From Flavobacteriales bacterium (GTDB lineage: Bacteria > Bacteroidota > Bacteroidia > Flavobacteriales_C > GCA-002722245), in the NCBI GenBank assembly GCA_947444925.1, contig CANFBW010000011.1, positions 1 to 64,000 of the forward strand: a stretch of 64,000 bases of DNA, given 5' to 3'. Positions 44,625 to 60,252 of the stretch are shown in pieces. Position 1 is the first letter of the stretch. Each line of letters starts with the position of its first letter. The notes under the pieces were generated by a model, which did not search any database, was not told the origin of the DNA, and saw only the letters and a list, made by a program, of their open reading frames with translations. The position numbers and the translations under genes were made by a program.

Positions 44625-46946
44625 TTGAACAAAAGAAAAACATATCTGTACAGCACAATACTGTTAGTTCTCGCGCTATGCTCTGCTTGTAGATCTACCC
44701 GATTTGTGCCTGAAGAAAAATTTATGCTTCAGAAAAACGAAGTGAAAATTACTGGACATTATAATTTTGACGCTGATGAATTAACTTCATATATCAAGCA
44801 AAAACCCAACGACGCAATTCTCTTTGGAACTTGGAAATTCTACTTAACAGCTTATAATTTCTTGCACAAAAAGAAAGATGACCGCGAAGATTTTCAAATG
44901 GAGAAACACCATTTATTTACTCGCATCCGTTTAAAATCAAGTGAGGCAGTTGGCGAAGCACCAGTGATCCTTGATTCTGCCAAGATCCCTTATTCGATCA
45001 AACAAATGCAAATTTATTTGCAAAACAAAGGCTACTACCGTAGCAAGATGCATAGCGAAATCAACTACGGAAAAAACAAAAAAGCCACTGTTCTATACCA
45101 CATTACTTTGAATGAACCCTTCACCATCAACGAAGTGAAAATTATAACAGAAGACCCATTCATAAGTTCAAGCTATGGCGAATTCGCTAAAAGCTCTAAT
45201 TTAAAAGAAGGGAAACTGTTTGATGTAGGAGCACTTGATCTCGAAAGAACCCGATTGACCGAGCTTTATCAAAACGAAGGCTTATTTGATTTTAATGAGT
45301 ATTTCATTCACTATCGCGTTGACACAACGATTGGCGCTAACAAAGTCAATATTGTATTAATTATCGACAATCCAGTTGAAAAATACAATGCTAACGACTC
45401 CAGTATTAGCTCTACACACAAAAGATACATCATCAGAGACATCAGCATTCAAACCGACTTTATACCCACCAATCCCAACCTACCGTCTCAACACTCAATT
45501 GTCGTCGATGACATGTATACTTTTAAATACCGAGACACGCTACATTATAAAACTACTCCCATTTTAAAAGCGATCTATTTCAAGAAAGGAGATTTCTATA
45601 AAATCAAAAATCACAACCACACCTACAATCAGCTAACTGAATTGGGGATTTTCAATTTTATCAAGATTGATTACAAAAGAATTGAAAACGACAGTATTCC
45701 CAAAATGGATGTACTTATAAAACTAAGCGCAAAGAAAAAATATTCAATTAGCCTTGAAGGACAAGGCACCTTCAGAGAAGGTTTTGGGGGTGGCGGCATC
45801 GCTGTATTTAAAACCAAAAATCCGTTTAAAGGGCTTGAACAAATTGAGTTCAGATTGCGTGCTTTTGCAGAATCTGTAAAAAACACGGCAACCGACAGCC
45901 GTATTATCGGTACAGATATTGGTCCCCAAGTTTCGATCAAAATCCCCAGCCTTTTGTTTTTTCCACGCTTATCAAAAAGCTTATGGAGCGAAGCCTACCC
46001 TAAAACGATATTGTCAGCCTCTTTCAATTATCAAAACAGACAGGAATACCGCCGTTGGATATACTCTTTTAGCAACACCTATGAGATGAATGAATCAAGC
46101 TGGAAAACACACAAACTTTCCATTCCCGACATCAGTTTATCATACATTGATAAAAACTCTTCAATATTGAGTAGTCTAGATTCACTGAGTCCCCGATTGG
46201 CATTCTCTTTTCAAAACTACGTGAACGCAGGAATCAAATATTCCTATATTTTCAACGGTGTGCTGAAAAAAGAAAAAAATCCAATCTTGCTAATGGCCAA
46301 TATTAACATCACCGGACTGCTCGGTTCGCTATTGAATTATACTGGTTTTTTTGAAAAAGACTCCTCTGGCGCACAATTAGTGGGCAGCATGAGATATTCT
46401 AAATTTGTAAAAGTAGATGGCGACTACCGTAAATATTTCAATTTGCACAAGGAAGAACAAATTATATTTAGATCGTATGCAGGATTTGCACTCCCATTTG
46501 GCCGTGGAGACATTGCCGTACCTTTTGACAAGTTGTTTTTTAGCGGAGGCGCCAATGGTATACGCGGATGGAAAGTGAGAAACCTTGGTCCAGGTTCGTC
46601 GCGCGACACCACAGCAATAGCCAACATAGATAAATTAGGGGAAATTAAATTGGAGCTCAATGGCGAATACCGTTTTAGAATCAGCAGCATGGTCAAAGGT
46701 GCAGTTTTCACAGATGTTGGAAATGTATGGCGATTGCAAGACCGTGACGACAAAGCTGTATTTCACCTCAATCGTTTTTATAAAGAATTGGCTGTTGCAG
46801 GAGGACTTGGTTTGCGTTTTGACCTCAGCTTTTTAATCGCACGTCTTGACGTTGGTTGGCCCTTACACAAACCATATATGGGTGACACTTGGGAATTTAA
46901 GTTAAGTGAAGCTGAATTCAATGTTGGAATCGGCTACCCTTTCTAG
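44625..46946 (+). CDS. tamL: TamL-like lipidated Omp85 (BamA/TamA family) protein
   Basis: A 773-residue protein reading from a TTG start at 44625 into a lipoprotein signal peptide with lipobox LCSAC (Cys near residue 22). POTRA-like domains follow (about 30-400), then an Omp85 barrel (about 410-773). The barrel shows the Omp85 loop-6 motif as IRGW near residue 648, FTDVGNVW after it, and a final strand ending in Phe (VGIGYPF). Lipidated TamA homologues of Bacteroidota are called TamL and are thought to work with TamB in outer-membrane protein assembly or lipid transport. tamB is often adjacent but is absent here: the next gene is accD. Confidence 0.85.
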   Translation: MNKRKTYLYSTILLVLALCSACRSTRFVPEEKFMLQKNEVKITGHYNFDADELTSYIKQKPNDAILFGTWKFYLTAYNFLHKKKDDREDFQMEKHHLFTRIRLKSSEAVGEAPVILDSAKIPYSIKQMQIYLQNKGYYRSKMHSEINYGKNKKATVLYHITLNEPFTINEVKIITEDPFISSSYGEFAKSSNLKEGKLFDVGALDLERTRLTELYQNEGLFDFNEYFIHYRVDTTIGANKVNIVLIIDNPVEKYNANDSSISSTHKRYIIRDISIQTDFIPTNPNLPSQHSIVVDDMYTFKYRDTLHYKTTPILKAIYFKKGDFYKIKNHNHTYNQLTELGIFNFIKIDYKRIENDSIPKMDVLIKLSAKKKYSISLEGQGTFREGFGGGGIAVFKTKNPFKGLEQIEFRLRAFAESVKNTATDSRIIGTDIGPQVSIKIPSLLFFPRLSKSLWSEAYPKTILSASFNYQNRQEYRRWIYSFSNTYEMNESSWKTHKLSIPDISLSYIDKNSSILSSLDSLSPRLAFSFQNYVNAGIKYSYIFNGVLKKEKNPILLMANINITGLLGSLLNYTGFFEKDSSGAQLVGSMRYSKFVKVDGDYRKYFNLHKEEQIIFRSYAGFALPFGRGDIAVPFDKLFFSGGANGIRGWKVRNLGPGSSRDTTAIANIDKLGEIKLELNGEYRFRISSMVKGAVFTDVGNVWRLQDRDDKAVFHLNRFYKELAVAGGLGLRFDLSFLIARLDVGWPLHKPYMGDTWEFKLSEAEFNVGIGYPF

Positions 46947-56937: not shown

Positions 56938-57048
56938 TTTTTCTGTTGAAATATTATTTATCAAATCTACTGTTTTACAGTGTCTTTTGAAAAATTGATT
57001 CTTGTCTTTTTTAATTAGATTGTATATTTGATGCAATCTAATTTTATT

Positions 57049-60000
57049 ATGCGTTTCCTACACTTACTACTATTTATATTGCTAGCGGAATTGAGTTCGG
57101 CTCAAATTTACGATCCACTCCACTCTCCAAATTCATATCGAAACATCAATAATCCTGAATACTGGAAAAATCGGAAGCCACACGATGCCTACTGGCAGCA
57201 AGATGTTCACTATACCATCCAGGCCAATTTAGACGAAAAAACAAACATTATTTCCGGAACAGAATTTCTGACCTATTGGAACAATTCACCAGACACCCTC
57301 AACTTTGTTTATTTTCACCTTTACCAAAATGCCTTTCAACCTGGATCTTATTATGATCAGCTTTCAAAAGAAAATGGTGTCAGTGCATATTATGGAAAAT
57401 ACGAAGCACAAAAAAAAGGAACCCTTATCTCCACTATCAAAATCAACGGAGAAGAAGTCAAAACAGAACTCGACAACACGATTTTAAAAGTATACCTTCC
57501 AGAAGCATTGAAACCAGGCGCTAAAGCTGCCTTCGAACTTGAATTTAAAACTTTTTTCGATACAGGATCTTCGCGCCGCAGAATGAAAACATTTAAGGTC
57601 GCACATGGCTACAAACATTTCGATGGCGTGCATTGGTACCCGCGCATTAGTGTGTACGACAGGAAATTCGGATGGGATACCGAGCAACATTTGGGCAAAG
57701 AATTTTACGGCGACTACGGCACTTATGACGTTGAGTTGAATCTTGCCTCCAATTATGTTGTTGAAGCCACTGGCTATTTGCAAAACAGAGCCGATGTGCT
57801 ACCCGACGATTTGCGCAAAAAGTTAGATCTTAAAAATTTCATTTACCGCAAAGCAAGTGATACAATTACTATTGTAACACCTTACAATCCTATTGAACGA
57901 AAAACCTGGATTTATCACGCTGAAAACGTGCATGATTTTGCATTCACAGCAGATCCAACTTACCGTATAGACGAGAAATTTTGGGGAGACATTCAATGTG
58001 TTGCCCTCGTGCGTGAGCAAAATGCTTCCAAATGGATCAATGCCGCTGAATACACAGCTAAGGTAATCAAAACCTATTCTCAAAGTTTTGGACAATATAT
58101 TTATCCCAAAATGGTAGTGGCCGATGCAGAAGACGGAATGGAATATCCAATGCTTACACTCGATGCCGGGCAAGATCCCAACTACAGAAGTCTGCTTGCC
58201 CATGAAATTGGCCACAATTGGTTTTTTGGAATGGTGGGCAACAACGAAACCTATCGCGCTGCGCTCGACGAAGGTTTTACCGAATTTTTAGATTCATGGG
58301 CCTACCACGCCATTGATGGCGACACTGTTTACCACCTTCCTTCGACTTCTGCATACATCAGAAAATTCAGAAAAGAAACACTTATCCTCAACTCAAGGGT
58401 TTACGACAATTATATTTATGCTGCAGCACAAAACGACGACCGCGCGTTAAACACGCATTCCAGCGACTTCGATGGCGGCATGATCGACCAAGGAGGGGGC
58501 TATGGTCAGGTCTATTATAAAACCGCTACCATGCTTTACAACTTGCAGTATGTATTGGGTGATTCTCTTTTTCTTTCGGCCATGCAACACTATTTCAGTC
58601 AATGGAAAAATTGCCATCCTTATTTTGAGGATTTCAGAAACAGTATTATACAATACACACATGTCGATTTAAACTGGTTTTTCGACCAATGGATGGAAAC
58701 CACTAAAGTCATTGATTACGCAGTGCATTGTATTAAAAAAGGAAAAGAAAAAGACCAGTACATTCTGCAATTTAAACGCAAAGGCGATATGCAAATGCCG
58801 CTTGACTTTCAAATCATTAGCAACAACGACAGCATCAGTAATTACCACATTCCCAATACATGGTTTGTCAAAAAAACACAAGCCACTATTTTACCAAAGT
58901 GGTACGGCTGGGGAAACCTTGCTCCTACCTATGAAGCAACCGTTACAATCCCTGGAGGAATCTACAATGTGATCATCGACCCAAGCACTAGACTTGCTGA
59001 TGTAAACCTTCTTGACAATTCTAAAAAAACACCATACACCGCCGACTTTGATGCACGACTAAATAATCCTCTCGACCGCAATAATTATGAACTACGCTGG
59101 AGACCCGATGCTTGGTACAACCAATACGATGGCGTAAAAATAGGCATGCACCTCAATGGAAATTACTTGAAAAATTTCCATGTGTTCGATGCCAACTTTT
59201 GGTTCAACAGCGCGCTGGGACAAGTGCATTTTCCTGAAGCTGTGTACATCAATAAATTCGACGTTTTCTCTTTCCGCGTAAACTACAATACCTTGCTGCC
59301 AAAGCTTGGTAAAAATGTAAAAGTTGACGTGCACTCTAGTTTTCTCGAAGGTTTACAGCGCCATGAATTAGGTTTAAGTAAAACTTCAAAAAGCAAAAAC
59401 GACAAAATCAAAATATACCTTAAAGCGCTGTATAGAAAAGACGCCAATGCTCTCACCTACTTGCTCAATCCAACTGAATGGTTGGAAAATAAATGGAACA
59501 ACACACTCAATATTGAATATACACACCTCTATCATTATGCATCAGGAATGGGTGAAATCAAATTGGGTATGAAAACTTCAGCATTCGGAAGCAACTACGA
59601 CTACTCCTCCCTTCGTCTTTCTGTTGTGAATCATTCTAGAATTGCCAAAATGATTTTAAGTACGCGATTTTTTGCACAGTACGGCAGCGGTACAAATATT
59701 GCCCGCGAATCTGCTTTGTTCGCTGCAGGAGCCAATTCAGAAGAATTAATGGACAACAAATACACGCGTTCAATCAGCGTATTTTCAGCCAGCAACGCAG
59801 GTTTCGGAAGCAATACCAATATCTTTCAAGCAGGTGGCGGACTTAATTTACGAGGATATGCAGGTTACTTGATAGCCGAATCTAAAAAAAACAGCTATAT
59901 TGCTGGTTACAAAGGAATCTCCGGAACTTCTTTCAGCGCTGAACTTGAATTCAGTGATTACTTCCGCTGGATGCCGAAACGAATGCGCACGTATCTTGAT

Positions 60001-60252
60001 TTTGACACCTACCTTTTTTCTGATGCAGGAATATTATTGGTACCAACCGGTAGTGTTCAAAATCAATGGGGAACTTTTTCTGCAGACGCTGGACTCGGAG
60101 CCACGATGAAAATTAAAAAGTTTGGAAGACTAGAAACTGTAAAACCACTGGTATTGCGTGTTGACTTTCCTTTGTTCTTAAACCGTACGCCAAATTTATC
60201 TCCCGACAACTTTCAGTTCCGATGGATAATTGGCATCAACAGATCATTTTAG
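57049..60252 (+). CDS. M1 metallopeptidase fused to an Omp85-like outer-membrane barrel
   Basis: A 1067-residue protein with a signal peptide (about 1-19, ending LSSAQ). Residues about 35-610 are an M1 (gluzincin aminopeptidase-like) domain: substrate loop GMEYPML near 363, zinc motif HEIGHNW with His385, Glu386, His389 and the third ligand Glu408 exactly 19 residues on. From about 680 to the end the sequence becomes alternating amphipathic strands. It carries LRGY at about 934-937, followed by ELEFSDYF and YLFSDAGILL, and closes in Phe (IIGINRSF). That order and spacing (LRG motif about 130 residues from the end) match Omp85 loop 6 and its following strands, as in TamL at 44625. I chose the ATG at 57049; TTG at 57028 is possible. 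The protease would sit on the cell surface or in the periplasm. Confidence 0.85.
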   Translation: MRFLHLLLFILLAELSSAQIYDPLHSPNSYRNINNPEYWKNRKPHDAYWQQDVHYTIQANLDEKTNIISGTEFLTYWNNSPDTLNFVYFHLYQNAFQPGSYYDQLSKENGVSAYYGKYEAQKKGTLISTIKINGEEVKTELDNTILKVYLPEALKPGAKAAFELEFKTFFDTGSSRRRMKTFKVAHGYKHFDGVHWYPRISVYDRKFGWDTEQHLGKEFYGDYGTYDVELNLASNYVVEATGYLQNRADVLPDDLRKKLDLKNFIYRKASDTITIVTPYNPIERKTWIYHAENVHDFAFTADPTYRIDEKFWGDIQCVALVREQNASKWINAAEYTAKVIKTYSQSFGQYIYPKMVVADAEDGMEYPMLTLDAGQDPNYRSLLAHEIGHNWFFGMVGNNETYRAALDEGFTEFLDSWAYHAIDGDTVYHLPSTSAYIRKFRKETLILNSRVYDNYIYAAAQNDDRALNTHSSDFDGGMIDQGGGYGQVYYKTATMLYNLQYVLGDSLFLSAMQHYFSQWKNCHPYFEDFRNSIIQYTHVDLNWFFDQWMETTKVIDYAVHCIKKGKEKDQYILQFKRKGDMQMPLDFQIISNNDSISNYHIPNTWFVKKTQATILPKWYGWGNLAPTYEATVTIPGGIYNVIIDPSTRLADVNLLDNSKKTPYTADFDARLNNPLDRNNYELRWRPDAWYNQYDGVKIGMHLNGNYLKNFHVFDANFWFNSALGQVHFPEAVYINKFDVFSFRVNYNTLLPKLGKNVKVDVHSSFLEGLQRHELGLSKTSKSKNDKIKIYLKALYRKDANALTYLLNPTEWLENKWNNTLNIEYTHLYHYASGMGEIKLGMKTSAFGSNYDYSSLRLSVVNHSRIAKMILSTRFFAQYGSGTNIARESALFAAGANSEELMDNKYTRSISVFSASNAGFGSNTNIFQAGGGLNLRGYAGYLIAESKKNSYIAGYKGISGTSFSAELEFSDYFRWMPKRMRTYLDFDTYLFSDAGILLVPTGSVQNQWGTFSADAGLGATMKIKKFGRLETVKPLVLRVDFPLFLNRTPNLSPDNFQFRWIIGINRSF

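Follow-up and report, generated by a model that had tools for sequence, protein, structure and literature searches.

In bacteria as in mitochondria and chloroplasts, outer membranes are built by Omp85 proteins, whose barrels are found behind N-terminal parts of several kinds. In the 2014 survey, Heinz and Lithgow described ten bacterial subfamilies, which include POTRA types, lipoproteins, WD40 and patatin forms, a 'Metallo' form with a PF00149 domain and a form with no N-terminus, and no M1 form is among the ten (PMC4104836). Two signatures mark these barrels: loop 6 bears (V/I)RG(Y/F) at its tip, and strand 13 bears (F/G)xDxG. They are linked by an Arg-Asp salt bridge, and strand 14 has a conserved glycine (Maier et al., PMC4490367). 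LRGY is also borne by the BamA of Flavobacterium johnsoniae, a member of the Bacteroidota (PMC12611786).

In the present study, we analysed a window of 64,000 nucleotides, by which the whole stretch of DNA is meant, in which the first-pass annotation had proposed an M1 metallopeptidase fused to an Omp85-type barrel and had known of no described M1 version. The open-access literature, to which our search was confined, likewise yielded no description of an M1-Omp85 protein. On the basis of a structure model and of conserved motifs we consider the protein to be, quite probably, an outer-membrane-anchored M1 zinc aminopeptidase carried on a POTRA-less barrel of the Omp85 type.

The fusion gene and its M1 half

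The gene is an uninterrupted ORF of 1067 aa on the forward strand at 57049..60252 (ATG at 57049, stop at 60250-60252), and all its features are given below in window coordinates on the same strand. The protein is composed of a type I signal peptide, the M1 peptidase, the M1 beta-sandwich and a C-terminal barrel, in this order. Full-length homologues in relatives show 43-82% identity, and an assembly artefact was dropped as the source of the fusion because the same fusion is present in dozens of separate contigs. Upstream of the gene, at 57002-57030, TTG is followed by 18 bases and then by TATATTTG, a putative match to the promoter consensus of flavobacteria, TTG ... TAnnTTTG.

The predicted type I signal peptide MRFLHLLLFILLAELSSA (57049..57102), assigned from the sequence with cleavage before Gln19, has the usual Bacteroidetes form. 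A lipobox was found in none of 89 homologues of the fusion protein, and lipoprotein anchoring was therefore dropped.

The M1 N-terminal and catalytic domains occupy about residues 40-555 (57166..58713), as delimited by PF01433 (Peptidase_M1, residues 378-548, E 4.7e-11) and by homology to M1 proteins that stand alone (about 630 aa). The zinc site agrees with the first-pass annotation, with HEIGH at residues 385-389 (58201..58215) and the third zinc ligand, Glu408 (58270..58272), 19 residues past His389. The HEXXH-x18-E site of peptidase family M1 is complete (H385, E386, H389 and E408), and among 89 aligned full-length homologues the two histidines are kept in 88 and the two glutamates in all. 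The exopeptidase motif GxMEN, which in M1 enzymes concerns the substrate N-terminus, has a partial counterpart in GMEYP (residues 363-367, 58135..58149), where Gly, Met and Glu are retained (Glu365 in 88 of 89) and Tyr replaces Asn throughout the family. Tyr489 in VYxKT (58513..58515), present in 88 of the 89 with one gap, is presumably the catalytic Tyr by analogy to E. coli PepN. Since the alignment with free-standing M1 relatives reaches residue 657-668, about residues 556-657 (58714..59019) were assigned to the beta-sandwich domain III of M1.

The barrel and its probable kinship with Omp85

For residues 605-1067, AlphaFold2 with an alignment of 90 homologues gave a model with mean pLDDT of 89.9 and pTM of 0.85. 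Counted from residue 680, the model has 16 strands and, as the first-pass annotation had anticipated, carries LRGY at the position of loop 6. Together with Foldseek, it marks residues 680-1067 (59086..60249) as a predicted 16-strand beta-barrel of the Omp85 type. The loop between strands 11 and 12, 74 residues in the secondary structure of the model (59698..59919), is the sole very long loop of the barrel, and it contains LRGY (residues 934-937, 59848..59859). The strand-13 lid-lock motif FxDxG reads FSDAG (residues 990-994, 60016..60030), and strand 14, SADAGLGATMKI (60079..60114), has invariant glycines at 1015 and 1017. The barrel thus has all three elements described by Maier et al. (PMC4490367): the loop-6 motif, the strand-13 motif and the strand-14 glycine. 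The chain ends with Phe (60247..60249; Phe in 87 of 89 homologues), a typical residue for recognition by BAM. LRGY, FSDAG and the terminal Phe had been pointed out earlier, LRGY being 134 residues from the end (about 130 had been given).

Conservation of the motifs is nearly complete. In the alignment of 89 full-length homologues no sequence departs from Arg935, Phe990, Asp992 or Gly994, and 86 have Gly936. At position 937 only Tyr or Phe occurs, and at 934 only Leu, Val or Met; the non-invariant positions vary only in the canonical way (L/V/M, Y/F). The FxDxG is in the F form, as in BamA and TamA and unlike FhaC. When the C-terminal half was shuffled, both motifs appeared at suitable spacing in 0.06% of shuffles, so the pair exceeds chance. 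The window also contains a bona fide Omp85 protein as comparator, TamL (44625..46946, forward strand; NF052279 E 8e-179, PF01103 E 2e-26). In TamL, IRGW stands 128 residues from the end and FTDVG 49 residues further on, a parallel that had been drawn before with a distance of about 127.

A POTRA-domain match was not obtained in the fusion protein. About 22 residues separate M1 domain III from strand 1 at residue 680, which leaves no room for a POTRA domain, and the first-pass annotation, which had seen no clear POTRA domains, was right in this respect.

In the Foldseek search of PDB with the barrel model, the best 50 of 650 matches were all BamA or TamA (E 9e-9 to 3e-7), with moderate TM-scores of about 0.4-0.57 at 10-14% identity. 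A viral library served as specificity control, and there porins, autotransporter domains and SusC-like barrels were found at E 1e-2 or worse, together with one strong match to an unnamed protein. The best 50 PDB matches favour the Omp85-type reading of the first-pass annotation.

Profile searches gave a different result. The HMM check that the first-pass annotation had proposed was negative, as PF01103 finds the barrel in none of 90 homologues at E up to 1, and no Pfam model is common to more than three of the 90 over the barrel half at the same limit. Searches of Pfam, NCBIfam and PDB sequences with the barrel half alone gave no match, nor did the search of PDB sequences with a 90-row barrel profile. 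Because PF01103 detects the barrel in none of the 90, the evidence for Omp85 membership is structural and motif-based. By hhalign, the profile of the fusion family (family 1) scored weakly against Bacteroidota BamA (P 0.011, slightly above shuffles) and against TamL no higher than its own shuffles.

Further information came from 26 free-standing barrels, which are encoded as separate genes. These were also without match in Pfam (PF01103 in 0 of 26), NCBIfam and PDB sequence searches, and they align with family 1 at 9e-45 in profile-to-profile comparison. Against TamL they gave a score of 42.0 (P 1.3e-4), where the maximum of 60 block shuffles was 37.7 and the reversed control 18.2. The alignment is in register, GGaNLRGY falling on GGANGIRGW and SYLFxDxG on AVFTDVG. 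Homology of the fusion barrel to Omp85 is likely, and it is not proven by sequence.

It could be argued that this is a generic 16-strand outer-membrane barrel in which RGY and FxDxG arose by convergence, with no Omp85 kinship, as would fit the lack of sequence-family matches and the moderate TM-scores. We regard this as very improbable, since both motifs are invariant and lie at the exact topological places of Omp85, Foldseek strongly favours BamA/TamA over other outer-membrane barrels, the model of a sister family also favours SAM50, BamA, TamA and CdiB, and the free-standing barrels match the TamL profile in register.

Distribution and relatives

The M1-Omp85 fusion is widespread in Bacteroidia genomes. 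It was present in 33 of 40 relatives, with one copy truncated at the end of its contig, and 80 loci were retained in a scan across GTDB, some of which lie in the same genomes. A second M1-plus-barrel protein of 1012 aa with an intact active site, which belongs to a second family (family 2), is encoded in the same genome (L116:2698-5733(-), G000:C37). The C-terminal half of family 2 was found in 59 of 80 Bacteroidia genomes and matched the free-standing barrels in profile comparison (P 8.6e-7). Its AlphaFold2 model (pLDDT 83.2, pTM 0.80) likewise shows 16 strands, of which the eleventh and twelfth are joined by a long loop, and its best PDB matches are SAM50, BamA, TamA and CdiB; the [VIL]RG[FYW] motif is absent from this barrel (G000:C37). 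At L120:6988-14000(-), an ORF of 1316 aa that by eye resembles TamB is immediately followed by a family-2 gene.

In the sampled Bacteroidia families f32-f38 no full-length barrel was seen, and only the tail of separate M1 proteins matched. Outside the class Bacteroidia, the barrel of family f51 is encoded separately, by a gene of about 400-470 aa, and nearly all genomes with it also have a separate M1 gene (about 630 aa). Genomes of f49 contain the separate barrel as well as the fused protein. At loci L191-L199 of these two families, the free-standing barrel lies in a conserved cluster with a greA-like gene and then a NUDIX hydrolase, whose ORF overlaps that of the barrel in most of them. The clusters often continue with acetate kinase, an SH3-like lipoprotein and a phosphotransacetylase-like gene, and at L199 two barrels follow each other in tandem.

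When the gene neighbourhoods of 64 loci were clustered, no conserved partner gene of the fusion emerged. Since only rlmH, a DUF4783-like gene, nadC and a YihY-like gene (names by eye) recur upstream, in 11-15 of the 64 loci, the synteny looks inherited rather than functional. In the tree of M1 domains, in which some long branches make the details unsure, each fused family forms one clade, and at least one fused protein lies interspersed among the separate M1 proteins, which indicates that the M1 and barrel domains were split or joined more than once. This is no single odd fusion but a family both large and old, beside which stand a sister family and the free-standing barrels.

Some members have lost or exchanged the peptidase. 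In a fused homologue at L111:3119-6157(-), HEXXH has become REXXF and the barrel is retained with its motifs, which makes it a pseudo-peptidase. A family-2 homologue of 952 aa at L239:709-3564(+) is without any HEXXH and was missed by PF01433. In one relative (L112) the barrel has a different N-terminus, and a separate M1 is encoded elsewhere. As L111 and L239 keep the barrel with the catalytic residues lost, catalysis is not the whole role everywhere, and this suggests that in some lineages the non-catalytic remainder of the protein has a role of its own.

These two losses also keep in play the reading that the protein is a scaffold or assembly factor, in which the barrel is the working part and helps insert or clear outer-membrane proteins, with M1 standing in for POTRA as a substrate-binding or quality-control module. 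The lid-lock residues and the insertase-type FxDxG are retained in keeping with such a function, and barrels persist as separate genes, with M1 replaced (L112) or with M1 catalysis residues lost (L111, L239). However, the catalytic residues of M1 are intact in 88 of 89 members of family 1, and PlpD is an Omp85 barrel that bears an enzyme without known assembly function. We therefore hold this role to be unlikely, yet worth keeping in mind, and the anchored aminopeptidase remains our preferred reading.

Proposed role and comparison with known systems

As an anchored aminopeptidase, the protein would be exported by Sec and cleaved before Gln19, and BAM would insert its barrel by way of the C-terminal aromatic strand. 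The barrel would then be held closed by the loop-6 lid lock, with Arg935 against Asp992 and Phe990, and the M1 part would hang on the periplasmic face by the joint of about 22 residues that follows the beta-sandwich domain. There it may trim N-terminal residues from unprotected peptides or from protein N-termini near the outer membrane. The even strand count and the periplasmic N-terminus would place M1 in the periplasm, and an Omp85 barrel has both its ends there, so by this analysis the M1 part is most likely a peptide-trimming enzyme at the inner face of the outer membrane. The outer-membrane anchoring suggested by the first-pass annotation is largely supported by the 16-strand Omp85-like model and its BamA/TamA matches. 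The presentation of the aminopeptidase at the cell surface, which had also been suggested, is unlikely, because the N-terminal domains of Omp85 proteins are periplasmic and experiment has placed the patatin domain of PlpD, which had long passed for an exported one, in the periplasm (PMC11116518).

The same evidence bears on an autotransporter-like function, by which the barrel would export its own M1 domain to the surface. This was the original model of PlpD for its patatin domain (PMC4104836), and the later location of that domain in the periplasm (PMC11116518) speaks against it. Besides, the conservation of the lid-lock residues points to a closed pore, the lumen is small for a folded M1 of about 640 residues, and the C-terminus is a barrel strand with no T9SS signal domain. 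Such export is improbable in our opinion, and we return to the periplasm-facing aminopeptidase.

An enzyme of this kind may be of interest for the 'Q-rule'. Most SPI substrates of Bacteroidetes expose Gln, which is cyclised to pyroglutamate for a reason left open, and shielding from the cell's own periplasmic proteases was named as one possibility; the need of cultured P. gingivalis for glutaminyl cyclase, which is essential there, was also left without an explanation (PMC5837995). The M1-barrel aminopeptidase could conceivably be the internal periplasmic activity that the N-terminal pyroglutamate guards against. A widespread aminopeptidase facing the periplasm is a candidate for the selective pressure behind the rule, and we offer it as a lead; if true, the fusion makes the question of that paper (PMC5837995) testable.

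If the main reading is true, a widespread architecture, and a second one with it, is added to Omp85 that sequence models missed, which would suggest that an enzyme can take the place of POTRA domains altogether. In a wider and rather doubtful proposal, there would be an unrecognised branch of Omp85 that PF01103 does not see. It would comprise at least two families fused to M1 as well as POTRA-less barrels that stand alone, and in it aminopeptidase and lateral gate would form a quality-control unit of the outer membrane.

Among the known systems, PlpD/FplA (patatin-POTRA-Omp85, type Vd) resembles the fusion in having an enzyme domain, likely periplasmic, N-terminal to a 16-strand barrel of the Omp85 type. 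It differs in that its enzyme is a patatin lipase and not an M1 zinc peptidase, it has POTRA, and the barrel of the fusion is not recognised by PF01103. Type Vd is defined by patatin, POTRA and barrel; the fusion has M1 for patatin and no POTRA. The 'Metallo' subfamily also carries a non-POTRA enzyme domain on an Omp85 barrel, the domain being PF00149 and not M1. Though the survey calls it a metalloprotease, we take PF00149 to be a calcineurin-like phosphoesterase fold. WD40-Omp85 proteins (a TolB-like propeller plus Omp85) share with the fusion a non-POTRA N-terminus, whereas they contain a beta-propeller and PF01103 finds their barrel. One of them is encoded in this genome (L235:270-3623(+), G000:C20). 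Its propeller is preceded by a weak match to Peptidase_MA_2, it has motifs of the RGF and FxDxG type, and it is possibly another, degenerate peptidase-Omp85 combination. Free-standing M1 peptidases of Bacteroidota (about 630 aa) have the same M1 core, including domain III, without the barrel. TamL and BamA of Bacteroidota have the 16-strand barrel with [LIV]RG[YW] in loop 6 and then an FxDxG or FxExG strand, but with POTRA domains where the fusion has M1, and TamL, unlike the fusion protein, is lipidated. Overall, as far as the open-access literature goes, M1 on an Omp85-type barrel is a new domain architecture.
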